From: a virus
IMG/VR virus record: IMGVR_UViG_3300031600_000017
Coordinates: 1-30,229 of that record
DNA length: 30,229 nucleotides
Direction: 5' to 3' (one strand)
Shown piece by piece: positions 9,193-29,144 of this stretch. The stretch's first letter is position 1. Each line of letters starts with the position of its first letter. A model generated the notes under the pieces. The model had not been told where the DNA came from. It did no database searches and saw nothing but the letters and a program-made list of their open reading frames with translations. A program made the position numbers and the translations under genes.

Positions 9193-10374
9193 TCATCCAT
9201 CGGCCAGCAGTTCAGCCGCGAGAGTTCGCAGCGCATGCGCCGCAACCAAGGGGACCACGCCGTTGCCACAGAGGCGAAGCCGGTCCACCCGGTGGGCCAG
9301 CCCATCAGCGCCTCGACAAACAGCGGGTTCAAGGTCCGGCGCACATCGGAGGTATCGCTCCCAACCATCGGCGTCACCAGGACCTGGCGGCCAAGCAGGC
9401 CATTCACCGGCGTGTTCGCCAATGTCGTCGCCCCATCCTTGTGATCCCGCGCCGTCGGCGTCATCCACATTCGGCTGGCATGGGTCAGATCGGCCGTCTT
9501 GCGGTTGCCGGAACTCGGCTTGCAGCCGTCGTTGGCCATCGGTGTTGGCCAGTCCCGCGCCATACCGTCCAGACCCTTCTCGTCTTTCCGCGCGCCGCCC
9601 CGGCTCCGGAAACTGTCGGTCTGCGGCGTGGGCCACATCGCGGCCGTCGTCGCCAGGTTCATTCCATGCTTGCCCGCCTCCTGCGACGGCGTTGGTTTCG
9701 TCTGCCGGTTTTCGTTGGCGCTGGCCCTCGGCGTCGGCCAGAGCCGGAGCAGTTCCGTCCGATTGCCGCCACTCGACCGGGTTCCAGAGCAGGCGCGCGG
9801 GGTTGGCCAGTTTGTCGCCTTCGCGGATGGCGAGGATGAACAGCCGCTCGCGCTTGTGGGGCGCACCGACTTCCGCCGCAGTAAAGAGGCCTGCCGCAAG
9901 GCGGTAGCCCATACAGACCAGTCCGCTGGCGACTTCGGAGAAGCCGAGGCGGAGATGATGGGCGACATTCTCGAGGAACACGAACGACGGCTCAACCTCG
10001 CCGATGATGCGGGCGACATGGGGCCAGAGGTGGCGCGGGTCATTCGCGCCCCGGCGTTTGCCCGCGACGGAGAACGGCTGGCACGGATAGCCCGCAGTGA
10101 CGATGTCCACCGCGCCGCGCCACGGGCCGCCGTTGAAGGTTCCAACGTCGTCCCAGACAGGCGCGCTATCCAGGGACGCGTCTTCCATCCGCGCCACGAG
10201 AGTGGCTGCGGCGAAGGTTTCCCGTTCGACATGGCCCACAGCACGATATCCGGGGATGGCGATGGCAAGCCCGAGGTCGAGTCCGCCGGCGCCGGAACAA
10301 AGGGAGAGGCCGAAGAGGCATGCGTCTCCGGCTCCGGAAGCGCGTCCGGAGGGATGTAAAGCCAGGTCATGCAT
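9193..10374 (-). CDS. DNA cytosine-C5 methyltransferase (motif IX out of frame)
   Basis: A 393 aa phage-type C5 methyltransferase. It shows motif I FGLSLCSGAGGLDLGL (about 21-36), motif IV GYPCQPFS with catalytic Cys98, motif VI ENV (135-137), motif VIII RERLF (175-179) and motif X GNGVVP (about 370-375). Between VIII and X the frame gives low-complexity LADAEGQRQR/LANTDGQRR-type sequence with no motif IX. The +1 frame over 9279-9335 instead encodes LNPLFVEALMGWPTGWTG, a clear motif IX. The gene may therefore carry two compensating frameshifts or be genuinely dual-coding. I start it at the ATG at 10374, one base after the upstream stop. No clear Shine-Dalgarno is visible. It probably protects phage DNA from host restriction. 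Confidence 0.85.
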   Translation of the reverse strand: MHDLALHPSGRASGAGDACLFGLSLCSGAGGLDLGLAIAIPGYRAVGHVERETFAAATLVARMEDASLDSAPVWDDVGTFNGGPWRGAVDIVTAGYPCQPFSVAGKRRGANDPRHLWPHVARIIGEVEPSFVFLENVAHHLRLGFSEVASGLVCMGYRLAAGLFTAAEVGAPHKRERLFILAIREGDKLANPARLLWNPVEWRQSDGTAPALADAEGQRQRKPADETNAVAGGGQAWNEPGDDGRDVAHAADRQFPEPGRRAERREGSGRYGAGLANTDGQRRLQAEFRQPQDGRSDPCQPNVDDADGAGSQGWGDDIGEHAGEWPAWPPGPGDADGWERYLRCAPDLEPAVCRGADGLAHRVDRLRLCGNGVVPLVAAHALRTLAAELLADG

Positions 10375-10375
10375 G

Positions 10376-11749
10376 TCACGCGGCGGATTTGGGTTTGCGG
10401 GCGGGTTCTGGGTCGGCGTCAGTGTCGGGCGCATCGGCGGGGGCGTCAGCATTGTCGCCCAGCCGCTCGGTTCTCACCTGCGCAAACGTGCGGCCATCGC
10501 CGTCAAGGATCGCGTCGCGACCGGTTTCGGCCTGCCAACGTTCAGCGGCGATGTCGATGTATGCTGGGCTGATTTCCATCGCGAACACCCGCCGCCCGTT
10601 GGCTTCGCCGGCCATGATCTGCGAACCCGAACCACAGAACGGCTCATAGCAAAGCCCGCCGCGCGCCACATGCTGGCGCATCGGGATCCCGAACGCGTCG
10701 AGCGGTTTCGGCGTCGGATGGTCGGGCCGCTCATCCTTGGTGAAGCTCGGCAGCGCCCATGTCGATGGCAGCGTTTCCTCGGCGACCTTCGGCGGTCGGT
10801 TTGGGCGGCGCCAGCCCATGAAGCAGGGCTCGTGTTTCCAGAGGTAGTGCGACCGGGTCAGGACCCCGCGGTCTTTCACCCAGATGATCTGCTGGTGAAC
10901 GAAGGCACCGGCCTTTTCCCAGCAGGCCTCCAGCATCGCCTGGCGACGAGAGGCGTGCCAGCAATACCATGCCGCGTTTTCAGCAACCGCCTCAGCGACG
11001 GCAGCGGCGATGAAACCGTCGTAGAGTTCGGCACCTTGGCTGCTGTCATCCCAGGTCGTGCCATAGGACGCCGACCAGTCCTTGTTCCGCGTTGGGTGGT
11101 TCGAGCCATCATAGTCGACGAGATACGGGGGGTCGGTGGCGAACAGGATCGCCCGCTCACCGTTCATCAGGCGACGCACATCGTCGTTGCTGGTGCTGTC
11201 ACCGCACAGCAGACGGTGGTCGCCAAGGATCCAGAGATCGCCCGTTTGCGATGCTGGATTGCGCGGCGGCTCGGGGATGGTCACCGGCGGGACGTTGGCA
11301 CCGCCGCCAGCATCCCCGTCCCCCTCCGGCACGTAAGCCAGCAGTTTGTCCAATTCGCCGTCGGAAAAACCGACCAGCGACAGGTCGTAATCATCGGCCA
11401 GCAGGTCGTTCAGTTCCGCCGACAACAGAGCTTCATCCCAAGTGCCGAGTTCCGTGAGCTTATTGTCCGCGATCCGGTAAGCCCGGCGCTGCGCCTCGGT
11501 CAGATGCCCAAGCACGATCACCGGCGCTTCGGTCAGCCCGAGCTGCGCCGCCGCCAGCACCCGCCCATGGCCTGCAATCAGTTCTCCGTCGTCCGCGACC
11601 AGGCAGGGCACCGTCCAGCCGAACTCCGCCATGCTGGCAGCGATCTTCGCGACCTGGTCTGCGCCATGCGCCTTCGCGTTTTTCGCGTAGGGCTGGAGCA
11701 TGGCCAGCGGCCAGGTCTCGATCGCGTCCGGGGCAAAGCTGAGCGTCAT
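10376..11749 (-). CDS. ParB-domain site-specific DNA methyltransferase (N6/N4 type)
   Basis: A 457 aa two-domain protein. Residues 1-135 form a ParB/Srx-like nuclease-fold domain, with LQPYAKNAKAHGADQVAKIAASMAEFGW and LIAGHGRVLAAAQLG. Residues 165-430 form a beta-class amino methyltransferase with DPPY at 206-209 and a later EPFCGSGSQ SAM-binding motif at about 369. Such ParB-methyltransferase fusions are typical orphan phage enzymes that modify adenine or cytosine N-positions. The start at 11749 (MTLSFAPDAIETWPL) is chosen because the in-frame upstream extension to 11818 runs into the repeat-bearing intergenic region. The C-terminal tail is acidic, then basic. It directly precedes the C5 methyltransferase. 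Confidence 0.9.
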   Translation of the reverse strand: MTLSFAPDAIETWPLAMLQPYAKNAKAHGADQVAKIAASMAEFGWTVPCLVADDGELIAGHGRVLAAAQLGLTEAPVIVLGHLTEAQRRAYRIADNKLTELGTWDEALLSAELNDLLADDYDLSLVGFSDGELDKLLAYVPEGDGDAGGGANVPPVTIPEPPRNPASQTGDLWILGDHRLLCGDSTSNDDVRRLMNGERAILFATDPPYLVDYDGSNHPTRNKDWSASYGTTWDDSSQGAELYDGFIAAAVAEAVAENAAWYCWHASRRQAMLEACWEKAGAFVHQQIIWVKDRGVLTRSHYLWKHEPCFMGWRRPNRPPKVAEETLPSTWALPSFTKDERPDHPTPKPLDAFGIPMRQHVARGGLCYEPFCGSGSQIMAGEANGRRVFAMEISPAYIDIAAERWQAETGRDAILDGDGRTFAQVRTERLGDNADAPADAPDTDADPEPARKPKSAA

Positions 11750-12150
11750 GATTTCGGTTCGCCTCAATGGGGTGGACCCCTGGACTCCGGACACCCGCAG
11801 CCAGCCTGGACTCCGCAAAGGGTCCAGCGGCCGCCGGACGCGTCCGGTTCCAAAGCTTTGTTTTGTTTAGGTTTTCAGCAGGTCGCGGGTGGATGCCCGC
11901 CGGGGTGGCTTCCCAAAAAACCGGCCCTGTCGCTGGCGATATTGCGCGCTTCGCCCGCCAGCATACGAAAGTCGCCCAGAAGGAACCAAGAATTCAATGG
12001 GTTAGGCAATTGGACCCCGGCTGGACCCTTACTGGACCCCGGAAACCAGCGGCGCGGCGTCTGCCTGCGCGCTCCTCTCCCGAGTATATCCCGTTTCTAA
12101 CGCTCTCGACGAAATGTGTAAGGGCCTGCGATGTACACCCGAAAATTCCC
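11750..12150. other. 401-bp non-coding gap
   Basis: No protein gene can be supported here. The gap lies between the end of the DUF6362-like gene and the start of the ParB-domain methyltransferase, both leftward. It holds the TGGACCC-type repeats, a 14-bp palindrome, an AT-rich stretch around 11855-11880, and on the minus strand a TATACT box (12083-12088) that could be a -10 element, though no good -35 is visible. It probably contains a separate promoter for the methyltransferase genes. Confidence 0.5.
11773..12040. repeat. Cluster of TGGACCC-type repeats in the intergenic region
   Basis: Repeats lie in two patches. TGGACCCC is at 11773-11780, TGGACTCC at 11781-11788 and 11807-11814, and an inverted GGGTCCA at 11820-11826. 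TGGACCCC is at 12011-12018, TGGACCCT at 12022-12029 and TGGACCCC at 12033-12040. The last three are spaced 11 bp apart, about one helical turn. A perfect 14-bp palindrome, CCGGACGCGTCCGG, is at 11834-11847. Face-aligned repeats in a non-coding gap upstream of the ParB-domain methyltransferase look like operator sites. The ligand is unknown. Confidence 0.65.
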
Positions 12151-13370: not shown

Positions 13371-16298
13371 TCATGGATCGAGCTCCCGCAGCCAATCGGG
13401 GATCGGTGAACCTCGGGAACCTGCCGCGGGAGGTTCACACCGAGGTTCACACGCGCAACGCTCTGACTTCACGGGGCTTTGTGAACCTTGTGAACCTTGT
13501 GAACCTTTTCCGGCATCATCCTTCGCATGTGCGTGCGCGCGCGTGTGCGTAAGGGTTGGGAGAGGTTCACAAGGTTCACAAGGTTCACATTTACCATTCC
13601 GATCAATGACTTGATTGTGTGAACCTCGGTTTTGGAGGTTCACACCGGAACCCCGAGGTTCACACGTGCCGGGCTCGCGCGCGCCCGATTGCGGCCGCGA
13701 CGGTTGCTCCGAGACCTTCAGCTGCCATTTGACCGCGCGCCGAAACGTGCCCGCCTGCACCAGACGGAGGGTCAGATCGCCCACCCGGAACACCCGGTCC
13801 CGCATCTTCTTGATGGCGATCCCGAAGCTGGTCTTCTGCGCGCGGTCCGTGTGGCCGGTGATGGGCGGCGCCGGATCACAGAACAAGGCCACGTCGAAAA
13901 GATCGGCCGCGCCCACCTCGGCGGTCCCGAAACGGTCCCACCAGGCGCCGATGAAGGCGCTCCAGCCCGCGCCCTCGCTGTCGGAGGCCTCCATCATCTC
14001 GTCGAGATTGCCGAGGAAGCCGGGAATGCACGCGACCTCGAGCACGCCGCCGACGACATGCGCCCAGTTCTCGAAGGAGCCGATGGTGCGCGCGCCGCGC
14101 GGCTTTCCGGCGGCGATCCACGCCTGGCAGAGCGTGAGGCAGGCGGCGACCAGCTTGGGGCGGTTCGCGCGCACCCACGTCATCAGATCGGGATGGCGAA
14201 AGCCGGTGCGCTGCCAGGGGCGCTCCTCGTGGGGGTCGAGCCGGATGCGCAGGAGGCGGCGCGCCATCTCGTTGGAGAACTCAGGGTTGTTGCCGGTGGC
14301 GATCCAGAGGCAGCGGATCGGCAGTCGCGCCATCTCGGAAGCGCCAAGGATCCGGTCCTCCCAGAAGGGCGCCGTCAGGGCGGCCGCGACGGCGGAGCTG
14401 TCGAGCTTGGCGCGCAGGTTGTCGATCAGCACGATGGCGGGGATCTGGCGCAGCTTGGCGGTGACGCGCTTGCGCCATTCGTCGTCGTCGCGCCCTTCGG
14501 TCATGACGCTCGCGCCCGAGCCAGTGAGGATGGTGGCAACGGCATCGACCATCAACGTGGCGCCGGAGCCAGGGCTGGGCTTCTCGATTAGGTGCAGCGG
14601 CGTCGGCCCGTCGATCATGCCGCGCAGGAAACCCAGCAGCAGAAGCGCGATCACATGGGCCATCTCGGCGGGGCCGACGAAGGGGAAGTCCCCGAGCAGA
14701 TCCTCGCACAGAAGGCTGCGCGCGGCCGCGATCTCGGCGACGGACGGCTTGGCCGGGATCGTGGGTACGACAAAGCCGGGCGTGGGGGCATAGAGGAGCC
14801 GCGCGTCGGGGTGATAGCCCGGCGTGGTCAGCAGCGTGCCGCCGCGACCGAATACCGGCGTGTTGACGATGCCCACCAGCACCGGCAGCGCCGGATCGGG
14901 CGTGGCCAGCACGGATTTGACAACGGCGATCGGTGGCGGGGCCGCGACCAGCTCGCCCTTGCCGTTCAGCTTCTTCCAGTGCGCCAGCCGCGCCAGCATG
15001 TGACGCAGCCGTTCCTCGGTGATCGCAGTGGCGACCGGGCGGCCCTCGTCGTCTGGCACCACCCATGTCGGCTGCCCGGCGAAACGGAACACCCACGGCG
15101 TCCGGTTGGAGGCCATGAGCAGGCTCCAGACCCGCTCGACGGAGCGGGCCAGATCGCCCTCATCGGCGCGCAAGGTGGGAATGGCCTCGCCGCTGCCCTG
15201 ATAATTGATCGGCCGGTGCTGCCCGATCAGCAGCGTGGGCTCGGCCTCGGTCATGGCCTCCGCGTCGGCGATCAGGGCGGCGATGGCCTCAGCCCCTTCG
15301 CGCAGCAGGAGGTCGTTGAAATCCTCGCCCGCCTCGGGCGGCAGGACGACGGCCACGTCGCGCCCCTGCGCGCGCAATCGCCGGGCGGCGGCCTCGGCAG
15401 CCCGCAGCCCGGCCCCGGAGGTGTCGTTGTCGGCCAGGATCAGCACGCGCCGGACGCCAGGCGGCAGATCGACCTGTTCAAGGCCCGACGTCGATAATGT
15501 AGCCCAGACCGGCAGATCGGGACATGCGGTCATCACCGCGAGGCCGGTCTCGATGCCTTCCGAGAGCGCCAGCCGATCGCCGTCGCCGAGCGCGGCCAGA
15601 CGCACTGCGCCGCCCGCTACCCGGCCCAGCATCTTCTTCGCCTTGTCGAGCGGCGCCTTGGTGACCGCCTCCTCATCGATGGCGAGGTAGCTGCGATGCA
15701 GGCCGATGACTGCGCCATCGCGATCGCGGACCTGTCCCAGCATGGCCGGATAGCCGGTCTTCGGCTCCCAATGGGCCAGGTCAGGGTGAAACAGGAGATC
15801 GGCTGCCTCAGGCACGGTCAGGCCGCGCCCCGTGAGATACTGCGCGACCGGGGTGCCCTCGATCGACGTTGCTGCCGTCAGGATATGCGCAATCTCGAGC
15901 GTGGGATCACGCTTCACTGGTGGGGGCGTCGGCGGTACACGGCGTTCCGGTGCGCCGGGCGCGATACCCGCCATGTCTGCCGCCTCGATGATCAGCGCGC
16001 GGCCGTCGAGCCCTGTCGCCTCCTCGATGGCGCTGATCGGGCCGCCGCCCAGATTGCCGTCGAAGTCGATCCAGTCGCCGGCATGCGCGCCGCGCAGGGT
16101 GATGACGCAGGAGCCGGTATTGCGCGGCGCATCTCCCCGGATGTTGGCGAGCCGCCATTCCTCGCCCGACTTGCGCCCGCGCGGAAAAAGGCGCGGCACC
16201 CAGACTTCAGCGGTCTCGCGCAGGCGAGCCACCACCAGATCGAGATCGTAGCGCAGGGGCTCGCCACCGAGCGGTTTGGCGTCGTTGAGGTCAAGCAA
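13371..16298 (-). CDS. TOPRIM DNA primase / helicase-like replication protein
   Basis: A 975 aa replication protein. Residues 1-110 resemble a zinc-free primase N-terminal region (WRLANIRGDAPRNTGSCVITLRG, GDWIDFDGNLGGGPISAI). Residues about 140-340 contain a TOPRIM domain with SEGIETGLAV (Glu247) and LADND (290-292). Residues about 480-800 look like an AAA+/SF3 helicase core, with PSPGSGATLM (574-583), where the usual Walker lysine is absent, PAIVLIDNL as Walker B and CLWIATGNNPEFSNEMARR. The last roughly 100 residues are low-complexity (CEP and GSQ triplets) because they are encoded by a repeat array. It overlaps the helicase gene stop by 8 nt and probably primes or initiates element replication. 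Confidence 0.88.
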   Translation of the reverse strand: MLDLNDAKPLGGEPLRYDLDLVVARLRETAEVWVPRLFPRGRKSGEEWRLANIRGDAPRNTGSCVITLRGAHAGDWIDFDGNLGGGPISAIEEATGLDGRALIIEAADMAGIAPGAPERRVPPTPPPVKRDPTLEIAHILTAATSIEGTPVAQYLTGRGLTVPEAADLLFHPDLAHWEPKTGYPAMLGQVRDRDGAVIGLHRSYLAIDEEAVTKAPLDKAKKMLGRVAGGAVRLAALGDGDRLALSEGIETGLAVMTACPDLPVWATLSTSGLEQVDLPPGVRRVLILADNDTSGAGLRAAEAAARRLRAQGRDVAVVLPPEAGEDFNDLLLREGAEAIAALIADAEAMTEAEPTLLIGQHRPINYQGSGEAIPTLRADEGDLARSVERVWSLLMASNRTPWVFRFAGQPTWVVPDDEGRPVATAITEERLRHMLARLAHWKKLNGKGELVAAPPPIAVVKSVLATPDPALPVLVGIVNTPVFGRGGTLLTTPGYHPDARLLYAPTPGFVVPTIPAKPSVAEIAAARSLLCEDLLGDFPFVGPAEMAHVIALLLLGFLRGMIDGPTPLHLIEKPSPGSGATLMVDAVATILTGSGASVMTEGRDDDEWRKRVTAKLRQIPAIVLIDNLRAKLDSSAVAAALTAPFWEDRILGASEMARLPIRCLWIATGNNPEFSNEMARRLLRIRLDPHEERPWQRTGFRHPDLMTWVRANRPKLVAACLTLCQAWIAAGKPRGARTIGSFENWAHVVGGVLEVACIPGFLGNLDEMMEASDSEGAGWSAFIGAWWDRFGTAEVGAADLFDVALFCDPAPPITGHTDRAQKTSFGIAIKKMRDRVFRVGDLTLRLVQAGTFRRAVKWQLKVSEQPSRPQSGAREPGTCEPRGSGVNLQNRGSHNQVIDRNGKCEPCEPCEPLPTLTHTRAHAHAKDDAGKGSQGSQGSQSPVKSERCACEPRCEPPAAGSRGSPIPDWLRELDP
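13405..13664. repeat. Eleven-copy GGTTCACA iteron array within the primase 3' end; candidate replication origin
   Basis: Exact GGTTCACA occurs at 13432, 13444, 13564, 13573, 13582, 13637 and 13657. Its complement TGTGAACC occurs at 13480, 13489, 13498 and 13618. A near copy, GGTGAACC, is at 13405. Three tandem copies at 9-bp pitch on each side (13480-13506 and 13563-13589) make a perfect 27-bp inverted repeat with a 56-bp spacer. The spacer holds a 28-bp strictly alternating purine-pyrimidine tract (13524-13551). Iteron arrays beside initiator genes are hallmarks of phage and plasmid origins. That this one is an origin is an inference. Confidence 0.85.
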
Positions 16299-17574
16299 GG
16301 ATCACCAGACCTTTCTCGGCCCGCGTGATCGCGGTGTAGAGCCAGCGGTTGCGGTCGGCGGCGGTGCGCCCGAACCCGTCGTCGAAGACGACGACGTTCT
16401 CCCATTGCGAGCCCTGGGACTTGTGGCAGGTGATGGCGTAGCCCCAGCTGGACTCGATCAGCCCGCGCCGGATCTGCCATTCCCGCCGCCCGCGCTCGGG
16501 ATCGAAGGCGACATGATCGGCGTATTCGCCGCGCCAGAAACTCTGCCGCCCACCGATGCTGATCCCGTCCTCGGTCTCGACCATGGCGCTGAAGGCGAAG
16601 GCGTCGTCCGGATCCTGCCGCACCTCGGTGAGGGTCAGGAACATGCCGTTGATCAATCCGAGATCGTGGCGGTTCTTCAGGCAGATGATCTTCTCGCCGT
16701 GGCCTGTCGGAAAATCGGCGCCGAACCCGGCCGCGCGCTTTATGGCGGTGTTCAGCCAGCGCCGCGTCGCGTTGGTGCCGCAGATCACCTGGCCGCCCTG
16801 CAGCATCTGCCCGGGGCCGATCTCGTGGCGCGACATCTTCCAGACATGGTCGTCATGCGCGCCGGGAGGGATCGGCAGCCCCTCGCGAGCCAGCGTCGCG
16901 AGCCGCAGGATGGCGCTGTCGCCCGCCTGGCGATGCACCTCGGTCAGCATCACGTCCGGTGCGGTCTCGGTGAAGAAGCCCGTGCCCTTCACGGGCGGCA
17001 GCTGGCCCGGATCGCCCAGCACCAGAATCGGCTTGCCGAAGGCCATGAGATCGCGGGCCATCTCCTCGCCCACCATCGAAACCTCGTCGAGGACCAGCAG
17101 GTCCGCGTCGCGCAGGATCGACTGCTCGTTGATCAGGAACTTCGGCTGGTGGATGTCCTCGAGCCGCAACTCGAGCTGGGCGATGCGCGTCATCGCGAAG
17201 CCGCGCTCGGCCGGACCCATGCGCGGCAGGTCGCGCCGCAGCGCCGCCAGATCCTCGGTCGCGCGCGCGATTTCCTCGGGGGTCGCCTCGGAGACCCGGT
17301 AGATCAGGCTGTGAATGGTCTGGGCGGGCGTGCCCTTGCGCGTCATGACGAGCGCCGCCTTGCCGGTGAAGGCCGCGAAGAGTACCCCGCCAAGCCCGCC
17401 CGGGGTCATGGGCTCCAGCCCCAGCGCCTCGATCGCCATTGCGGTGATGGTGGTCTTGCCGGTCCCGGCATAGCCGAACAGTCGGAAGATCTGCTGGTCG
17501 TGCCGCCGCGTCTCGTACCAGTCGCGGATTGCGGCGATGGCGCGGCCCTGGGTATCAGAAAGGGTGATGGTCAT
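16291..17574 (-). CDS. SF1 DNA helicase, RecD2/Dda-like
   Basis: A 427 aa helicase with the full SF1 motif set. Motif I is GYAGTGKTT (34-42), motif II LLVLDEVSMVG (Asp163-Glu164), motif III LGDPGQLPPV, motif V YAITCHKSQGSQWENVVVF and motif VI RWLYTAITRAEKGL. It is short for RecD2 and close in size to phage Dda-type helicases, which unwind DNA 5' to 3' at forks and in recombination. Its ATG overlaps the nuclease stop (ATGA) and its stop overlaps the primase start, so nuclease, helicase and primase are translated together. Confidence 0.93.
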   Translation of the reverse strand: MTITLSDTQGRAIAAIRDWYETRRHDQQIFRLFGYAGTGKTTITAMAIEALGLEPMTPGGLGGVLFAAFTGKAALVMTRKGTPAQTIHSLIYRVSEATPEEIARATEDLAALRRDLPRMGPAERGFAMTRIAQLELRLEDIHQPKFLINEQSILRDADLLVLDEVSMVGEEMARDLMAFGKPILVLGDPGQLPPVKGTGFFTETAPDVMLTEVHRQAGDSAILRLATLAREGLPIPPGAHDDHVWKMSRHEIGPGQMLQGGQVICGTNATRRWLNTAIKRAAGFGADFPTGHGEKIICLKNRHDLGLINGMFLTLTEVRQDPDDAFAFSAMVETEDGISIGGRQSFWRGEYADHVAFDPERGRREWQIRRGLIESSWGYAITCHKSQGSQWENVVVFDDGFGRTAADRNRWLYTAITRAEKGLVILA

Positions 17575-18344
17575 GCGCGGTCCTCCCAGCAGCGGGTTGC
17601 GAACGGGCAGAACCGGCAGAGATAGAAGTCAGGGCTGGTCGCGATGCGGGGCAGCAGATCGCCCGCGTCGGCGGCACGCAGCACGTCGACCGCCTTGTCC
17701 GACAGCGCCTGCGCGGCAGCGGGATCGAACGGCACGTGCTCGTGGTAGAGCTCGCAGGTGTCCTTGTTCAGCGCGGTGAAGAGCGCGGACCCGAGGCCCA
17801 TGTAGGCCATGTAGATCTGCATCTGGCCGAAATAGACGGGCTTGGAGAGCTGCACGCCCTTCTTCGCCGTGTCCGACCAGGAGGACGCTTTCAGCGCCTT
17901 GTGTTCCCAGAGAACGGGCCATTCGAGGCCGATCTCCGGGCCATCGACGATCACGCCGTCCACATGGCCGCGAATGCGCCCGCCCGCCGTCTCGAAACCG
18001 AACTGGCCGCCAGCTTGCGTCTGCGTGCGCAGATCGAACCCGGCCTGCCGGAGCCAGCTGATCGCCAGATCCTCGAAGACATGCCCGGCCGCGAAGATGC
18101 GAAGAACGCGCCCCTCGAAATCTTTGCCGGGATCGGGCGGCGTGTGGGTGACCTCGTAGACCAGCCGCCGCGCGCAGGGCTCGCCGATGCGGCTGGCGCC
18201 AAGATAGTCACGCGGGCGATGCCCCTCGCGTTCGGCAACCAGCGCAGCGTCGATGTGGCGGTTGATCCGCGCCGCGAGGGGTTCGGGGTCCGAGGCGTCG
18301 CGACCGTAGACGAAGCCCGACCCGTGATTGAAATCTACCAGCAT
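17571..18344 (-). CDS. PD-(D/E)XK exonuclease with Fe-S cysteines, Cas4/RecB-like
   Basis: A 257 aa nuclease. Residues showing the fold are Glu91 (GHVFED), Asp129 (GHVDGVIVD) and the EHK motif at 147-149 (LWEHKALK), followed by QMQIYMAYMG, the RecB-type motif III helix. Cys57 plus Cys243, Cys246 and Cys252 (LCRFCPFATRC) are arranged like the four cysteines that hold an Fe-S cluster in Cas4 and AddB. The start at 18344 has a GAGGGGG box and lies 10 nt after the previous stop. There is no CRISPR array or cas1/cas2 nearby, so this is a phage recombination/processing nuclease and not adaptation machinery. Confidence 0.88.
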   Translation of the reverse strand: MLVDFNHGSGFVYGRDASDPEPLAARINRHIDAALVAEREGHRPRDYLGASRIGEPCARRLVYEVTHTPPDPGKDFEGRVLRIFAAGHVFEDLAISWLRQAGFDLRTQTQAGGQFGFETAGGRIRGHVDGVIVDGPEIGLEWPVLWEHKALKASSWSDTAKKGVQLSKPVYFGQMQIYMAYMGLGSALFTALNKDTCELYHEHVPFDPAAAQALSDKAVDVLRAADAGDLLPRIATSPDFYLCRFCPFATRCWEDRA

Positions 18345-18354
18345 CCGCACCCCC

Positions 18355-18783
18355 TCAGAACGGCACGTCGCCATTGTCGGACTGGCGCTGCATCGAGGCC
18401 TGAAAGCCGTCCACGCAGGCCTCGATCACGCGGTCGATGTCCGCGGCCGGGCGGTCGAAGAAGGGCTCCATCAGGCCCATCTCCGTCAGCGCCTCGGCGA
18501 GCATCCGGCGGGCCTCCACGATGGCGCGCGTCTCCATGTCGGTCTTGTCGATCATGCCGTGGTTCCTTTTGGCGTTGGCCGAGCCCGCCATCAGGCAAGC
18601 CATCGAGCAGAAGCGGTAATGAGGATGGCGGTCCCAGCGCAGGCCATGGCAGTAGCCGAAGCCCCGAGCTTCACGGCCGCACTGGGCGCAGGGCACGCGC
18701 CGGGCGAGGTCCGCGCGCGAAGGAGGGCTCCGCCCGTTCGCGGCTGAAACGCTCCCACGGAGCCTTTCCGAGACGCCGCTCAC
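18355..18783 (-). CDS. Zinc-ribbon hypothetical protein (DUF6511-like)
   Basis: A 142 aa protein with GTG start overlapping the previous stop (GTGA). Residues about 30-65, CAQCGREARGFGYCHGLRWDRHPHYRFCSMAC, carry CxxC...C...CxxxC cysteines typical of a small zinc ribbon. The C-terminal half is helical and acidic (ETRAIVEARRMLAEALTEMGLMEPFFDRPAADIDRVIEACVDG). I associate it with DUF6511 from memory. The function is unknown, and nucleic-acid binding is plausible. A longer frame reading upstream overlaps the neighbouring gene and looks like a shadow, so the GTG start is preferred. Confidence 0.75.
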   Translation of the reverse strand: MSGVSERLRGSVSAANGRSPPSRADLARRVPCAQCGREARGFGYCHGLRWDRHPHYRFCSMACLMAGSANAKRNHGMIDKTDMETRAIVEARRMLAEALTEMGLMEPFFDRPAADIDRVIEACVDGFQASMQRQSDNGDVPF

Positions 18784-19013
18784 CCCATGAGCAGCAGGTC
18801 CAGCGCGTCGCGTTCCTCCTTGTCCGGCGCGGCGGTCCGGCGCTCGGAGGACAGCACGATGAACCGGCTGATGGCGTTCGAAGCCATGCATTCCAGATCG
18901 CGCCGGGTCAGGCTGGCGATGGGACGGTCGAGACGCCCGCGCGCCTCGAGCCAGCGCCCCATCGCCAGTGCCGCCTCCGTGGTGACATGCGCCTGCCATT
19001 CGTCCGGGCTCAC
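18780..19013 (-). CDS. Small hypothetical protein, GTG start
   Basis: A 77 aa protein reading VSPDEWQAHVTTEAALAMGRWLEARGRLDRPIASL... and ending KEERDALDLLLMG. GTG at 19013 overlaps the SSB-like gene's stop (GTGA), and its own stop overlaps the next GTG in the same way, which makes a chain of coupled genes. LTRRDLECMASNAISRFIVLSSER is an amphipathic helical segment. No family is recognised. Upstream residues in the same frame are shadow sequence of the SSB-like gene and are excluded. Confidence 0.75.
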   Translation of the reverse strand: MSPDEWQAHVTTEAALAMGRWLEARGRLDRPIASLTRRDLECMASNAISRFIVLSSERRTAAPDKEERDALDLLLMG

Positions 19014-19735
19014 GGGTTCAGCCAGGCCGGGCCGTTGCCGGGTTTGGCAGTGGGCTGGCTCTGGGTGGCGGGCTGGGCGGGAGCCGACGGAGCGCCCCAG
19101 GCAGGTGCCGCGGGCGCGGTGGCCGCCTGCGGCTGACCCCAGGCCGGGGTCGCGGGCTGCGCGGGCGCGGCGGCTGGCCGGGGCTTGTTCGACGGCTGTG
19201 CGGGCACGGGCTCGCCCGCCATCACCTTCTGCCACTCGGGCGCCGTGGGCAGCACGACATGGTCGAGCTTGTTGGCGTCCTTGTAGGCGGGGTTGCGGCT
19301 CGGCTCGATCTGGATCTTGGCCACGAAGCTGATCCCGTCGAGATCGGCGAGCCCGCGCAGCACACGCTTGGCCTTCGCCGCCTCGCTCATGTCCTCGGGG
19401 TTCAGCCCCAGCGCGCTGTCGATCATCGCGCGGAAGGTCGATTTCGAGATCTTCCAGCCGATCGACTGGCCCTGCTCGTCGAGCTTGCCGCCCTGCACGG
19501 TGAAGTTCTGCCAGAACTTGCGCCGGGCATGCGGGCCCTCGGCGACGGTGAACTCGGCATCGAGCATCAGCACGTCGCTGCCGGGCTGGTTCGAGGCCTT
19601 GAGCAGCCCGCGATCCGCGTCGCCCGTCCCGTCGGTGCCGCCCTTGCGCAGAGTCATCACCAGCTTGGCGAAGGTGCCGTCGGGGAGCAGGTCGCCGGAC
19701 TGTTGCGGCTCCACGTCGTTCATGTCGAAGGTCAT
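19010..19735 (-). CDS. Single-stranded DNA-binding-like protein (DUF669-type)
   Basis: A 241 aa protein. Residues 1-165 are a compact beta-rich domain, with GTFAKLVMTLRKGG, SDVLMLDAEFTVAEGPHARRKFWQNFTVQGG and ISFVAKIQIEPSRNPAYKDANKL, resembling DUF669-like proteins that replace SSB in many phages. Residues about 175-241 are a disordered Pro/Ala/Gln tail with repeated PAWG and a terminal PAWLNP, like the protein-interaction tail of SSBs. It directly follows the Sak4-like annealase gene, the usual partner. AAAGGA lies seven bases before the ATG. The assignment rests on pattern and context. Confidence 0.7.
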   Translation of the reverse strand: MTFDMNDVEPQQSGDLLPDGTFAKLVMTLRKGGTDGTGDADRGLLKASNQPGSDVLMLDAEFTVAEGPHARRKFWQNFTVQGGKLDEQGQSIGWKISKSTFRAMIDSALGLNPEDMSEAAKAKRVLRGLADLDGISFVAKIQIEPSRNPAYKDANKLDHVVLPTAPEWQKVMAGEPVPAQPSNKPRPAAAPAQPATPAWGQPQAATAPAAPAWGAPSAPAQPATQSQPTAKPGNGPAWLNP

Positions 19736-19739
19736 GTCG

Positions 19740-20594
19740 TCATCCTTTCCGGGGTTGGTTGATCTTGGTGAGCAGCGCGCCGAGATCGGGCGGCTCGGTC
19801 ATGTCGAGCCTGCCGCTGCGGTCCTTGGCCGGCAGGCCGAACGGATTGCCGGACTGGCAGACGAGGCGGCGCGCATTGCCCTTGTCGGGATCGTGCCGCC
19901 AGGTCGGGGGCGCATCGGGGCCCGCACCGGGATCCTGCGTGAACAGGCTCATCGTCAGCACCTGGTCGACGATGCCGGGCAACTCGCGGGCGACCTTTCC
20001 GCCGTCCATCTGCGGCTGCCAGGTCACCCGGTTCATGTCGTCGACGACCTTCTCGAGAATGCCGACGAAGATGACGGTGCGGCCGGGTGCATGCTGAAGG
20101 TGCTTCAGGAGCCCGATAACCTCGCGCGCCAGAAGCCCGTAGGCGCCGCGCGTGTCCGGTTTGCCGGTGCGTTCCGACAGAGCCTCGGGCCGGGTCTTGG
20201 CCCATGCCATGGCCTGACGCGTTAGATCCGTGATGCTGTCGACGAAGATGATGCGCTTGGTGTCGATCTTCTCGGCCAGCTCGGGATGCTGCGCCCGGAG
20301 ATGCGCGTGGTGCGCCTCCGAGAAATGCTCCTCGGGCTGGGTGGCAGGGTTCGCGCCGCCGATCAGGCAGGCGATGTCCACCGCATCGGAGAAGCGGCGG
20401 ATCGGGATGCTGTCGCCCGGCCAGTCCTGGACGGACTTGAGGCCCGCCTCCAGATCGATGCAGAGCGTCTCGGCGGGCGGCAGGGTCTTCAGCAGCGTGG
20501 TCTTGCCCGCGCCACTCGGCCCAAACAGCGCCATAGTGGTCTTGCCCTGCGCCTCACGCAGCCGGTCGTCGGCGGAGATGATGCGCAGGCTCAT
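19740..20594 (-). CDS. Sak4-like RecA-fold single-strand annealing ATPase
   Basis: A 284 aa P-loop ATPase. Walker A is GPSGAGKTT (25-33) and Walker B is KRIIFVDSITD (Asp119). RGAYGLLAREVIGLLKHLQHAPGRTVIFVG is typical of the short RecA-like Sak4 family, which anneals single strands in phage recombination with the help of a phage SSB, here the next gene. Length and motif order fit the family. The start overlaps the upstream stop (ATGA). Confidence 0.88.
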   Translation of the reverse strand: MSLRIISADDRLREAQGKTTMALFGPSGAGKTTLLKTLPPAETLCIDLEAGLKSVQDWPGDSIPIRRFSDAVDIACLIGGANPATQPEEHFSEAHHAHLRAQHPELAEKIDTKRIIFVDSITDLTRQAMAWAKTRPEALSERTGKPDTRGAYGLLAREVIGLLKHLQHAPGRTVIFVGILEKVVDDMNRVTWQPQMDGGKVARELPGIVDQVLTMSLFTQDPGAGPDAPPTWRHDPDKGNARRLVCQSGNPFGLPAKDRSGRLDMTEPPDLGALLTKINQPRKG

Positions 20595-24919: not shown

Positions 24920-25371
24920 ACAAGCCCGATCCCATCCCCGCGCGACTGGCCGCGCTGAAGACCATATCGACGCCCGAACTGAAGAAGCAGTGGCGTGACC
25001 TGTTCGACAGCGAGCCGCCGCCGTTCAACCGGCGCTACCTCGAATCCCGGCTGGCCTACCGCATCCAGGAGCTGGCCTATGGCGGGCTGAAGCCCGAGAC
25101 GACCCGGCGACTGGAACGGCTGGGCGAGGAACTGGACGGTGGCGACAAGAGGAAGCGCGGCATCCGCGCCGACCGCGACCTTCCCATCACCGGCACGCGC
25201 CTCCTGCGCGAGTGGCAGGGCGTCGAGCAGGTCGTCACGGTCACCGCCGACGGCTTCGAATGGCAGGGTCGGCCCTACAGGTCGCTGTCGGCCATCGCGC
25301 GCGCGATCACCGGCACGCGCTGGAACGGCTGGGTCTTCTTCGGCCTCAAGAACCATAGGGCGCGGACATGA
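24916..25371 (+). CDS. DUF2924 domain-containing protein
   Basis: A 151 aa protein. Its N-terminal part, ARLAALKTISTPELKKQWRDLFDSEPPPFNRRYLESRLAYRIQELAYGGL, and C-terminal part, GTRLLREWQGVEQVVTVTADGFEWQGRPYRSLSAIARAITGTRWNGWVFFGL, are characteristic of DUF2924. The C-terminal part resembles the RAMA-like fold proposed to bind modified or damaged DNA. DUF2924 genes are regular neighbours of large serine recombinases in alphaproteobacterial mobile elements. A role as recombination partner is an inference from that linkage. Both ends overlap neighbours by 4 nt. Confidence 0.92.
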   Translation: MNKPDPIPARLAALKTISTPELKKQWRDLFDSEPPPFNRRYLESRLAYRIQELAYGGLKPETTRRLERLGEELDGGDKRKRGIRADRDLPITGTRLLREWQGVEQVVTVTADGFEWQGRPYRSLSAIARAITGTRWNGWVFFGLKNHRART

Positions 25372-26693
25372 CGAAACCGCCTGAAAAATCGAAGGTCGTC
25401 CGCAAGTTGCGGTGCGCGGTCTACACCCGGAAATCCTCCGAGGAAGGGCTGGAGCAGGAGTTCAACTCGCTCCACGCCCAACGCGAAGCCTGCGAGGCTT
25501 ACATCGTCAGCCAGCGCTCCGAGGGCTGGGTGCTGGTCCGAGATCAGTATGACGACGGCGGCATCTCCGGCGGCACGCTGGAACGCCCCGGCCTGAAGCG
25601 GCTGGTGGAGGACATCGAGGACGGGCTGGTCGATGTGGTCGTGGTCTACAAGATCGACCGCCTCAGCCGGTCGCTGGCGGATTTCGCCAAGCTGGTCGAA
25701 GTGTTCGACCGGAACGGCGTGACCTTCGTCTCGGTGACGCAAAGCTTCAACACCACCACGTCGATGGGGCGGCTGACGCTGAACATCTTGCTCAGCTTCG
25801 CCCAGTTCGAACGAGAGGTCACCGCCGAACGTATTCGCGACAAGGTCGCGGCAAGCCGGAAGAAGGGGATGTGGATGGGCGGGGTGCCGCCCTATGGCTA
25901 CCGAGTCGAGAACCGGAAGCTGCTGGTCAACGAAGATGCTGCCGCGGATGTGCGCTGGATCTTCTGCCGCTTCCTCGAGATCGGGTCCTGCACGGAACTG
26001 GCGCGGGACGTCGGCACGCGTGGCATCCGCACGCCGCGCGGCAACCGGATCGACAAGAAGTATATCTACCGGATGCTCAGAAACCGCGCCTACATCGGCG
26101 AGGCGGTCCACAAGGGCGACAGTTACCCCGGCGAGCAAGACGCCATCATCGACCGCGAAATGTGGGACAAGGTTCACACCATCCTGCAGGAGAGCCCCCG
26201 CAAACGCGCCGCGCGCACCCGCGCCGACATGCCCGCCTTGCTGAAGGGGCTGCTGTTCGGCCCAGATGGCGCGGCGTTCTCGCCGACCCACACGCGTAAG
26301 GGCAGCAAGCTCTACCGCTACTATGTCAGCCAGACGGTGCTGAAGCATGGCGCCGGATCGTGTCCCGTCGGCCGGGTGCCCGCGGGCGAGATCGAGGCCG
26401 CCGTCGTCGACCAGCTGCGCGCCGTCTTCCACCAGCCCGAGATCGTGGCGGGGACATTGAAGGCGGCGCGCGCCTACGTAGACGATATCGCCGAAGCAGA
26501 GGCCCGCGCGGCGCTGCGGCAACTCGATCCACTGTGGGACGAACTCTTCCCCGCCGAGCAGGCGCGTATCGTGGCGCTGCTGGTCGAGCGCGTGGACATC
26601 GCCACGGATGGGCTCAACGTCCGGCTTCGCGTCGATGGACTTATGGGCCTCGCGCGCGAGGTGCTGGCCGGCGGCATCGGAGAAGCGGCGTGA
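25368..26693 (+). CDS. Large serine recombinase (integrase/invertase family)
   Basis: A 441 aa protein. The resolvase domain (about 14-160) contains YTRKSSEEG with Ser23 as likely nucleophile, YKIDRLSRSLADF and FAQFEREVTAERIRDK. The recombinase domain (about 175-290) begins GGVPPYGYRV and includes YIYRMLRNRAYIGEAVHKG. The zinc-ribbon region at about 285-330, where a CxxC pair is usual, reads LLFGPDGAAFSPTHTRKGS, so the first cysteine pair is gone and only one cysteine (GSCPVG) remains. It catalyses strand exchange at attachment sites, and is probably the integrase of this or a nested element. It is short for the class, with a reduced coiled-coil end. The start is coupled to DUF2924 (ATGA). 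Confidence 0.93.
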   Translation: MTKPPEKSKVVRKLRCAVYTRKSSEEGLEQEFNSLHAQREACEAYIVSQRSEGWVLVRDQYDDGGISGGTLERPGLKRLVEDIEDGLVDVVVVYKIDRLSRSLADFAKLVEVFDRNGVTFVSVTQSFNTTTSMGRLTLNILLSFAQFEREVTAERIRDKVAASRKKGMWMGGVPPYGYRVENRKLLVNEDAAADVRWIFCRFLEIGSCTELARDVGTRGIRTPRGNRIDKKYIYRMLRNRAYIGEAVHKGDSYPGEQDAIIDREMWDKVHTILQESPRKRAARTRADMPALLKGLLFGPDGAAFSPTHTRKGSKLYRYYVSQTVLKHGAGSCPVGRVPAGEIEAAVVDQLRAVFHQPEIVAGTLKAARAYVDDIAEAEARAALRQLDPLWDELFPAEQARIVALLVERVDIATDGLNVRLRVDGLMGLAREVLAGGIGEAA

Positions 26694-27082
26694 CCCGCGC
26701 CACGCCGATCCCAGATACCGTGACGCTGCATGTCCCGCTAACGTTGGTAAAGCGCGGCGGACGAAAGGAGATGCAGCTACCCGAGGGTGCCGCGCAGCCG
26801 CGCAGGACCGACAACACGCTGGTCAAAGCACTGGCCCGGGCATTTCGCTGGAAACGCATGCTGGAATCCGGCGACTTCATGACCATCACCGAACTGGCCG
26901 AGCGAGAAGGCGTAGCGGTTTCCTACCTCACCCGTGTACTTCGCCTGACACTTCTAGCCCCCGAAACAATTGCGGTGATCCTAGACGGCCTGCAAGGACC
27001 AGAACTGACCACCACGAACGTGACGGGCCCGTTTCCGCTCGAATGGGCACTTCAGCGCCGGTACTTTCAATCGTTAAACTAG
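26690..27082 (+). CDS. HTH protein downstream of the recombinase, GTG start
   Basis: A 130 aa protein. The GTG at 26690 overlaps the recombinase stop (GTGA). Residues about 64-95, MTITELAEREGVAVSYLTRVLRLTLLAPE, form a clear helix-turn-helix. RWKRMLESGDF lies just before and GPFPLEWALQRRYF near the end. Proteins of this shape often follow DUF2924-recombinase pairs and may act as recombination directionality or regulatory factors. That role is a hypothesis. An earlier in-frame start would overlap the recombinase heavily, so the coupled GTG is preferred. Confidence 0.82.
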   Translation: MTRATPIPDTVTLHVPLTLVKRGGRKEMQLPEGAAQPRRTDNTLVKALARAFRWKRMLESGDFMTITELAEREGVAVSYLTRVLRLTLLAPETIAVILDGLQGPELTTTNVTGPFPLEWALQRRYFQSLN

Positions 27083-27084
27083 CC

Positions 27085-27112
27085 CCTCGGCGCCCGGAGG
27101 CCTGCGCCGAGG
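27085..27112. terminator. Stem-loop between convergent genes
   Basis: CCTCGGCGC (27085-27093) and GCGCCGAGG (27104-27112) form a perfect 9-bp stem with a 10-nt loop. It lies 2 nt after the recombinase-operon stop and 20 nt before the stop of the converging protease gene. There is no strong T-run on either strand (TTAAAAGG on plus, TAGTTTAAC on minus), so it is a modest bidirectional terminator candidate. Confidence 0.6.
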
Positions 27113-27132
27113 TTAAAAGGATCAATTACCGG

Positions 27133-28278
27133 CTAGTCGCGATTGGCGACGAGGCGCAACTTTGGCTTCTCCCTTGCCCTTAGCTTGCCTTCCGGAACCG
27201 CGAGCCCATGCATTATCGCGAATTCCACAGGATCAGTCCGAAGTCCTTCGGCCAGTTCGTCCAAACTGTACCCGAGGTCGTTTATGTGCAAGTTCAGAAG
27301 CTGCGCAGCTAGTTTGCCGGTCTCCGGAGCAATGTCGAACTCATGCGGCTCCCGGGTGCGGTACCCGAATGCGCTCATTCTTTTATAGAGCGCAGTGGCG
27401 TTCTCGTCCGTGATAGCGCCAAGTGATTTGGCTCTGTAGATCAGGGCCGACATTGCTGTCCGCCACTTCTGCTTCAGCTGGCCGAGTCGCGGAATAGAAA
27501 GTCCGCGCTTCAGATCAGGCAGGACGCCCGTCTTTGGCATCAACAGTTCCGCCGCAAAATCGTTGGCCTCCTTTTCCATCGCATCGTAGGGGAAGGCATG
27601 CAGGACGACATGGCCATATTCATGCGCGAGGCTGAATCGCTTACGGTCGGCAGGGCGCGCATGGTTCAGCACAACCACCGGCTTCATGCCAGGAGGGCGC
27701 AGGGTGACGCCGTCGATGTCGGCTTGGCCGAAGTCTCCCTCCACGACAAGAATGCCACTCGCCTCAACAAAGCGGACGAGATTCGAAATCGGTCCGTCAC
27801 CAAGTTGCCAGGATGCCCTGATCTTTTGAGCAGCCTCACTAGCAGATGTGACGGCGTTGGCGTTGTCGCTGACGCTGGATTTATCGCTAACCACCTCGAA
27901 CTGAAGCAGCGAAAACTCGGGTTCCAAGTCCACGGCATCCAGAAGCTTTCGGAAATGGAGGACATAATGGTTGGCGAGTGCCACCACCCCCTCCTGATCC
28001 CTTTTCGACACTGCTGCTTTTCTTCGGAAAGCAGCGCCATGGAGGCTCAACGGCGTCCTATAAAGCGGCTCTTGCTCATAGAAGAAGCTCACAGGTAATC
28101 CCAAAAAACGCGCAATCGACTGGATTTCCTCCTGCGAGAGCGCGTCCCGGGTGCCGTTCTCGATTCGGGAGATTGCAGCCTGCGCAACCCCAGTTTCGGC
28201 GGCCAATTCTGTCTGTGTCTTCCGGCGTCTATTTCGAGCTAGGAGCAGCATCCCCCCGTTTATCGGTCGTGCTGCCAT
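27133..28278 (-). CDS. XRE-family regulator with ImmA/IrrE metallopeptidase domain
   Basis: A 381 aa protein. Residues about 8-65 are an XRE helix-turn-helix (LLLARNRRRKTQTELAAETGVAQAAISRIENG). Residues about 170-250 form the zinc protease: HEYGH (His219, Glu220, His223), then EKEANDFAAELLMP with Glu237 as third ligand. Such fused proteins bind DNA and cut a partner repressor, as ImmA does for ImmR in ICEBs1 and IrrE for DdrO in Deinococcus. It overlaps the upstream gene by 50 nt and is probably co-expressed with it. The upstream product may be its substrate or toxin/antitoxin partner, which is a hypothesis. Confidence 0.92.
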   Translation of the reverse strand: MAARPINGGMLLLARNRRRKTQTELAAETGVAQAAISRIENGTRDALSQEEIQSIARFLGLPVSFFYEQEPLYRTPLSLHGAAFRRKAAVSKRDQEGVVALANHYVLHFRKLLDAVDLEPEFSLLQFEVVSDKSSVSDNANAVTSASEAAQKIRASWQLGDGPISNLVRFVEASGILVVEGDFGQADIDGVTLRPPGMKPVVVLNHARPADRKRFSLAHEYGHVVLHAFPYDAMEKEANDFAAELLMPKTGVLPDLKRGLSIPRLGQLKQKWRTAMSALIYRAKSLGAITDENATALYKRMSAFGYRTREPHEFDIAPETGKLAAQLLNLHINDLGYSLDELAEGLRTDPVEFAIMHGLAVPEGKLRAREKPKLRLVANRD

Positions 28279-28945
28279 TTTCGGTTTCTTCTCCCTTGGG
28301 TCTCTTGATTGTCAACTTCGCGCCTGCTGGCTCATTTACTGGCGCGTTATCCATGGCCCCAGCAGCCACGAACGGTGTGGAGCGATGAATCTCGATCATT
28401 CTCTGATCTATCCCGTCAGCGAACTTTATGAAGACTTTCGAGACGGACACTCCCGTGCCACTCAAGTGGCAGGCGATAAAAAACAGCAGCTGATCAGGCG
28501 CTTCGACGTCGTAAGGAAAGAGTGATCGTTGCTCTTCAATGTCGCAGACAGAGAAGTCGGATTTCGCGAACTGATGAGAAGATTTCGAGGTTCCGCCGCG
28601 GGGCCCTGACAGATGAAGCTCGAAACTGAAAGATCGTTCCTCGCCACCGAGATCGACAACACCTGTAACTTTGTTGCTCCGGCCGTCATTGACATGAGTA
28701 ACTTCCAAGCCGCGATCGGAGAGATTGACAGCAGATGCCGCATCAGTCAGGGCGCTGTTCAGCACCGAGCCAACAGCTCGCGGGTCGGAAATGTTGATGT
28801 GCTTCACCCGACCGAGATCCGCTAAGGTCGCTTCCAGCTGCCCTATGAGCGTCCAAAGAGGTTCCTCGAACCTTTCCCGGGCTACCTGCAGTGCTGCATC
28901 TCTGTCCAAACTCGATCCACCTCTTGCCGCCTCACGCTGCTGCAT
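28229..28945 (-). CDS. Unrecognised partner gene of the XRE-ImmA protein
   Basis: A 238 aa protein, MQQREAARGGSSLDRDAALQVARERFEEPLW..., with SDRGLEVTHVNDGRSNKVTGVVDLGGEERSFSFELHLSG and APDQLLFFIACHLSGTGVSVSKVFIKFADGIDQRMIEIHRS. It is mixed alpha/beta, with a Lys/Glu/Ser-rich disordered tail from about residue 205. It shows no signal peptide, membrane span or known catalytic motif. GGAG lies seven bases before the ATG. Its end overlaps the protease gene by 50 nt. Base composition looks more AT-rich than the phage region, which suggests a separate origin. Confidence 0.8.
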   Translation of the reverse strand: MQQREAARGGSSLDRDAALQVARERFEEPLWTLIGQLEATLADLGRVKHINISDPRAVGSVLNSALTDAASAVNLSDRGLEVTHVNDGRSNKVTGVVDLGGEERSFSFELHLSGPRGGTSKSSHQFAKSDFSVCDIEEQRSLFPYDVEAPDQLLFFIACHLSGTGVSVSKVFIKFADGIDQRMIEIHRSTPFVAAGAMDNAPVNEPAGAKLTIKRPKGEETENGSTTDKRGDAAPSSK

Positions 28946-29144
28946 AGCACGGCTCCAAGGTGCCTGTCAAAAATATTCATCACCCTATTCAGCATGTGAA
29001 TATTTTGCGCCGTCGTTCCTTGCCGCACCTGCCTCCGCTGCCAGTGATCGGTGCCGACCGATGAAGGGGCTCCTCAGACCAAACGCTGAGCGGTCGCAGA
29101 TACGGCGCAGAAACGGCGCAGAGCTCCAGTTTGAACAGCAGGTA
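28946..29144. other. 199-bp intergenic region
   Basis: This holds the promoter and operator for the two-gene XRE-ImmA operon and the 3' flank of the restriction-type gene. Apart from the AT-rich inverted repeat it contains an 11-bp-period direct repeat at 29096-29124 (GCAGATACGGC, GCAGAAACGGC, GCAGAGC). No small gene or clear terminator can be supported. Confidence 0.5.
28970..29006. promoter_or_regulatory. AT-rich inverted repeat, candidate operator of the XRE-ImmA operon
   Basis: AAAATATTCA (28970-28979) and TGAATATTTT (28997-29006) are a perfect 10-bp inverted repeat with a 17-bp spacer, placed 25-61 bp upstream of the first gene's start. On the minus strand it ends next to TTGACA (28963-28968), which could be a -35 or coincidental. 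An XRE dimer binding such a site would give autoregulation. The pairing with this regulator is inferred. Confidence 0.6.

Follow-up and report, generated by a model that had tools for sequence, protein, structure and literature searches.

A putative replication origin of co-diversifying iterons inside the initiator-primase gene of alphaproteobacterial prophages

Introduction

The placement of a replication origin at the gene of its initiator is a known principle, with examples in plasmid pWTY27, phage P4, the SaPIs and phage lambda. RepA of the Streptomyces plasmid pWTY27 binds GTGGGAAC iterons adjoining its gene, according to EMSA and footprinting, and these iterons, within a 300-bp segment, are required for replication (PMC3583192). 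The alpha protein of P4 combines a Toprim primase, a helicase and a C-terminal winged helix that binds origin repeats (PMC4234260), while the C-terminal domain of SaPI Rep and SCCmec Cch2 recognises short iterons located directly downstream of the helicase gene (PMC7581432). The lambda ori lies within gene O, which encodes the initiator that binds its iterons (PMC6022878, PMC7466680). In the PLE of Vibrio cholerae, the DNA-binding domain of RepA and the origin covary and are swapped as a module, and an origin-directed nuclease has been proposed as the selecting force (PMC8263062).

In this work, we analysed a stretch of 30,229 nt (the window) of a virus contig displaying the gene layout of a temperate phage, in which an array of 9-bp iterons lies inside the 3' end of a primase gene. 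Homologues of this primase at ~30% identity are plasmid and virus replication proteins, among them pWTY27 RepA (tblastn, 31.5% identity over residues 373-837, E=1e-49; profile match, E=4e-78), whose sequence similarity covers the AAA+ domain and extends into the beginning of the C-terminal domain. Both systems have an inverted iteron array of the same form (GGTTCCCAC in pWTY27) at the 3' end of the gene; however, the pWTY27 array is outside the gene, with its first copies ~50 bp past the gene end, whereas that of the window is inside. Further, the primase of pWTY27 is a separate protein of another type (RepB, a primase/polymerase), and a single specificity has been studied there, without a residue-to-base code. 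P4 alpha has the same domain order, according to the literature (PMC4234260). The P4 iterons (CTGTTCACC) fit the general shape of the units described below apart from base 1, and crr, just 3' of the alpha gene, has facing groups, one pair of them at 9-bp pitch; conversely, only the primase part of alpha matches the window-family profile by sequence (E=1e-11), P4 needs a distant ori plus crr whereas the window has one array, and the P4 arrays are annotated outside alpha. SaPI Rep and Cch2 differ in having a separate primase, another helicase lineage and an origin outside the gene. Lambda resembles the window in that the iterons are part of the gene encoding their initiator, a putative one in the window (ORF 13371-16298), but carries four 18-bp iterons and an AT-rich region in the middle of O, a protein that is unrelated and not a primase; among the Pfam and PHROG matches of the window primase (DUF7146, Toprim and primase families), none named lambda O. 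The PLE differ in their RepA_N domain, their ~30-bp intergenic iterons and the two specificity groups described. Literature searches returned primers and unrelated papers only for the window repeat itself, and nothing for the P4 iteron combined with phage or primase terms. As far as searched, this family of proteins, an array located within the gene of a primase, the central tract and the residue-to-base code reported here are undescribed.

Results

The iteron array and its gene

The initial annotation of this DNA had described eleven exact copies of GGTTCACA/TGTGAACC within 233 bp, a near-copy at 13405 and two facing triplets forming a perfect 27-bp inverted repeat, an array judged to exceed chance and translated as part of the 3' end of the primase gene. 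All of these points were reproduced: the eleven copies start where it had placed them, the near-copy is GGTTCACC on the minus strand, the inverted repeat is perfect over 27 nt and extends to 32 nt at 94%, and the whole array lies inside the TTG-started ORF. Including one isolated copy at 26171, the window holds 12 exact copies against 0.46 +/- 0.63 expected from 100 shuffles of the whole 30 kb, none of which reached 12. The repeat is better described as a 9-bp unit, AGGTTCACA, and since the degenerate AGGTTCCCG matches a site position in relatives, the array was counted as 13 sites (Table 1). A copy scan of all 30,229 nt revealed no second array.

Table 1. Coordinates of the iteron array, its central elements and the domains of the gene that contains it.
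Feature	Position	Strand	Basis
Primase/initiator gene, 975 aa, TTG start	13371..16298	-	Pfam, PHROG, AlphaFold, Foldseek
C-terminal winged helix, residues 779-862, proposed iteron reader	13713..13964	-	predicted models, covariation
Predicted recognition helix, residues 818-832; 819, 823 and 827 covary with bases 4, 3 and 2	13803..13847	-	
Wing tip, residues 851-855; 855 with base 5, 853/854 with base 7, 852-854 with base 9	13734..13748	-	
C-terminal tail with low model confidence, probably disordered; its codons contain the array	13374..13706	-	pLDDT
Iteron AGGTTCACA	13656..13664	+	exact copy
Iteron AGGTTCACA	13636..13644	+	exact copy
Iteron AGGTTCACA	13618..13626	-	exact copy
AT-richer block outside triplet, candidate opening site (weak)	13590..13617	.	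mean profile, 65 relatives
Iteron triplet, 9-bp pitch, right arm of 27-nt perfect inverted repeat	13563..13589	+	
Alternating purine-pyrimidine tract, 28 nt, centre of inverted repeat	13524..13551	.	read from sequence
Iteron triplet, 9-bp pitch, left arm of inverted repeat	13480..13506	-	
Iteron AGGTTCACA	13443..13451	+	exact copy
Iteron AGGTTCACA	13431..13439	+	exact copy
Degenerate iteron AGGTTCCCG	13414..13422	-	position conserved in relatives
Degenerate iteron AGGTTCACC	13405..13413	-	near-copy

The encoded protein consists of a DUF7146 plus Toprim region, an AAA+/SF3-like domain, a predicted C-terminal winged helix and a probably disordered tail. The Toprim primase domain was recognised by Pfam (Toprim_3) and by Foldseek matches to DnaG and T7 primase, the latter search also returning NrS-1, AsfvPrimPol and poxvirus E5 helicases. 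In the AAA+ domain, the Walker A motif (14556-14579, residues 574-581) reads PSPGSGAT, that is, GxGAT instead of GxGKT, and every one of the 26 relatives in the full-length alignment has alanine where the lysine would stand; the role of the domain as a motor for DNA opening is therefore uncertain, and a pseudo-ATPase is possible.

The conserved core of the primase stops at about residue 866, and the array occupies the final 110 codons. Immediately before it, AlphaFold predicted helices at 797-805 and 818-832 and strands at 842-852 and 855-862, the secondary structure of a winged helix. Sequence searches of this C-terminal domain against solved structures gave nothing significant, and a Foldseek search with the winged helix alone gave no match below E=1. 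Residues 865-964 were modelled with pLDDT <50. The extreme end of the tail is conserved, with W followed by L, W, R or M within the last 12 aa in 68 of 75 tails (PDWLRELDP in the window), which indicates that the reading frame through the array is used. This terminal peptide, encoded at 13374-13400 after ~100 disordered residues and reading PPDWLKEVL or WLDGVP elsewhere, is perhaps a docking motif for a replication partner.

Relatives share the plan of the array and differ in its unit

Scans of viral contigs and bacterial genomes provided 181 relatives reaching the C-terminal end, belonging to the alphaproteobacterial Rhodobacterales, Rhizobiales, Rhodospirillales, Acetobacteraceae and Sphingomonadales; the matches listed from the tandem-unit scan of viral contigs include many unclassified ones. 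In almost every one of them, an array occupies the position seen in the window and is arranged as singletons, three minus sites at 9-bp pitch, a centre of 53-69 bp, three plus sites at 9-bp pitch, and singletons. The unit itself occurs in about 29 forms of the general shape ANNYYCMCN. Sites within an array are 0.92 identical, whereas a given site is 0.65 identical when arrays of different units are compared. The plus-site and minus-site consensus coincide at 651 of 666 positions; with shuffled arrays, 445 would be expected. All units in an array thus change jointly on both strands, which points to selection on the DNA rather than on the CEP/GSQ peptide; moreover, plus and minus sites encode different peptides (e.g., CEP and GSQ), so the uniformity of the unit does not derive from peptide selection. 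The initial annotation had anticipated arrays with divergent units at the same place in related primases, as found here, and had named a peptide tail preserved while the nucleotide repeat decays as contrary evidence; the opposite was observed, the unit being uniform within each array and the peptide variable.

In one relative (L186), the tail has GGTTCCCC units with CEP-type units at the far end, which looks like recombination inside the array. Six host genomes contain two copies of the locus, the pairs having the same unit in three (L198/L201, L256/L267 and L223/L264) and different units in the other three; same-unit pairs in one genome argue against strict prophage incompatibility, and incompatibility between co-resident prophages as the driving force found no support in this informal look at six hosts.

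Arrays were also observed directly 3' of distant homologues (L299:5536-5870, L303:4209-4541, L305:4368-4489, L306:4060-4292, L307:3921-4118, L308:4002-4222 and L309:4083-4341), which come from the archaeal virus vir525, Streptomyces and Saccharopolyspora plasmids, and an Azospirillum plasmid whose array has two facing triplets at 9-bp pitch. No array was found near the gene in RpAliso, RcXuper and phiCbK, large lytic phages with a homologous domain.

Residues of the winged helix follow bases of the unit

When each of 864 primase columns was evaluated as a predictor of the unit bases in 76 non-redundant sequences, the best predictors were residue 827 for base 2, 823 for base 3, 819 for base 4, 855 for base 5 and 854/853 for base 7, with base 9 mapping more weakly to 854/852/853. 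As relatives are non-independent samples, 37 edge-disjoint sister pairs were drawn from a tree built without the winged-helix domain, a procedure that corrects for kinship in part; the associations persisted for base 7 with R853 (p=2e-8), base 4 with R819 (p=1e-6), base 3 with T823 (p=1e-5) and base 5 with A855 (p=8e-5), while for base 2 residue 827 was tied with residue 814 and base 9 was weak.

The correspondence approaches a code. His853 goes with C7 in 46/47 sequences and Arg or Gln853 with A7 in 29/29; Ala855 goes with T5 in 59/59, and Thr or Val with C; at base 4, Arg or Lys corresponds to T, and Gln, His, Thr or Asn to C; Lys or Arg827 was found with G2 in 0/42. Holding out groups of >80% identity, residue 853 gave the right base 7 for 75 of 76 cases, over a baseline of 61%; when deeper groups are excluded, few differences are left to predict at bases 3, 4 and 5, the set being dominated by a single large group. 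A simple transfer of the code to pWTY27 RepA (~31% identity) was unsuccessful. In the model, residues 819, 823 and 827 are spaced i, i+4, i+8 on a single helix face, and residues 852-855 form the wing tip. The proposed contact order of helix and wing fits the established way in which winged helices read DNA. Considering the covariation and the predicted structure together, the reader of the array is probably the C-terminal winged helix of the primase itself, which would dock on each unit.

The centre of the array, its flanks and the GC skew

SaPI-type origins have two symmetric iteron sets flanking an AT-rich core. The window also has two symmetric sets, but its core, an alternating purine-pyrimidine tract, is rich in G+C, and the blocks of higher AT content are found beyond the triplets. 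Across 69 loci, not all of them independent, the mean tract length is 24.3 nt, and synonymous codon choice would account for 12.2 +/- 0.55 nt. In the mean profile of 65 relatives, AT content reaches 53-55% at the place matching the AT-richer block of Table 1 and 59% at the mirror place, compared with ~35% around. Between the upstream singleton and the first triplet (window 13590-13617), a CAACCCATTGAAAACATTGG-like motif recurs in many relatives, including fairly distant ones, and may serve DNA opening or the binding of a host protein.

The initial annotation had read the array as an initiator-bound origin and proposed GC skew as a check. Its reading is supported by the divergent arrays and by the skew, which is of opposite sign on the two sides of the array in 28 of 29 related loci, a small shift that could partly reflect coding composition; that initiation takes place here is what we infer. 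The replication-block genes of the window are all on one strand.

The proposed reader and its array are exchanged together

Two relatives with different units, L174 and L137, are 92-98% identical on both sides of a ~450-bp stretch in which identity falls to 58-78%, and this stretch comprises the 3' part of the winged helix plus the array. Several further pairs show similar cassette swaps in genes that are otherwise ~95% identical. In very close pairs with different units, the winged helix and array are the sole diverged stretch from about -2.6 to +1.3 kb, which indicates that the reader and its sites were exchanged together.

Phage context

Portal, terminase and head genes are on the left of the window, a replication and recombination block is in the middle, and a serine integrase is on the right. 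A Dda-like helicase gene (16291-17574) lies upstream of the primase, near genes for a Cas4-like exonuclease and a Sak4-like annealing protein (17571-20594). Further, a ParB-like domain fused to an N6/N4 DNA methyltransferase is encoded beside a C5 cytosine methyltransferase (10376-11818 and 9193-10452). At 25368-30229, the serine integrase is on the plus strand and is followed by a drop in G+C to ~55%, which suggests a prophage edge or another insert.

Discussion

With a probability that we put at about 0.83, judged from sequence comparison, the locus represents an initiator-primase with an intragenic iteron origin that is read by its own winged helix and exchanged as a cassette. Comparison among relatives documents the co-diversification of array and winged helix, the position within the gene and the cassette swaps, while binding, opening, initiation and its direction at the array are what we infer. 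In the mechanism proposed, the array would be the prophage replication origin inside the 3' end of the initiator-primase gene, with the winged helix binding each 9-bp unit, its recognition helix reading bases 2-4 and its wing bases 5, 7 and 9. Primase copies on the two inverted triplets would form facing complexes around the alternating tract, and the DNA would open in this tract or in the flanking AT-richer blocks, which would place primase and phage helicase ready for replication in both directions. A location within the gene may be tolerated because the array encodes a disordered tail, and having the reader domain beside its sites would allow both to move between phages as a ~450-bp specificity cassette. 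With somewhat less assurance, we favour a broader proposal, namely that the family holds a near-deterministic natural recognition code in which about 29 origin specificities arise from changes at about six positions of the winged helix, with one base of the 9-bp iteron assigned to each; that reader and sites overlap as an exchanged ~450-bp segment; and that the core is a selected alternating purine-pyrimidine (Z-DNA-prone) tract instead of a classical AT-rich opening element.

Several other explanations were weighed. The primase might bind the array for autoregulation, partition, copy-number control or phage exclusion instead of initiation, an unlikely option in our assessment. Iteron arrays are often regulatory, ectopic origin copies were reportedly tested as a block to lambda growth (PMC4488673), and the window array lies upstream of a RuvC-like gene; against this, the array of the pWTY27 homologue is essential for replication (PMC3583192), and that of the window is single, symmetric and in a coding region inside an operon, with a primase as its proposed binder and a GC skew that turns at the array.

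It is very unlikely that the array is read by some other protein, of phage or host, and that the primase domain covaries merely as a neighbour. The codons of the winged helix adjoin the array and are swapped along with it, so their linkage is complete; however, in close pairs with different units, divergence within about -2.6 to +1.3 kb is limited to these two elements, the covarying residues are the expected winged-helix contacts, one per base in helix order, and the same residue-base pairs recur in independent lineages.

Selection of the CEP/GSQ-rich tail as protein, leaving the DNA repeat as a by-product, would account for the open frame and for the C-terminus conserved in 68/75 tails, yet it is highly improbable: the peptide varies freely (CEP, GEP, GGP, GER, GEH, GEC, WGP, CEV), each change being matched in the reverse-strand peptide at the opposite sites, and a site read in another frame follows as well (VNL, GNL, GDL), while the tail is predicted to be disordered and synonymous choice preserves the alternating tract. 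Finally, that the repeats act as an RNA hairpin or attenuator within the primase transcript is scarcely credible, for although the triplets would pair as a 27-32 nt stem and Rfam returned sub-threshold matches only, to long hairpins, singletons beyond the stem follow the triplets in their changes, and the link of the unit to residues of the DNA-binding domain would be left unexplained.

An initiator-primase that reads iterons within its own gene would provide a large natural data set in which initiator and origin co-diversify and single residues are mapped to single bases, and would make testable how an origin shifts its specificity without killing the replicon. It also offers an explanation for an origin inside a coding region, by means of a disordered tail and a 9-bp pitch equal to three codons, and would render origins predictable from sequence alone in many alphaproteobacterial prophages, related plasmids and an archaeal virus. 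Taken together, these findings suggest that phages swap origin specificity as a cassette, as PLE satellites do under attack by an origin-directed nuclease.
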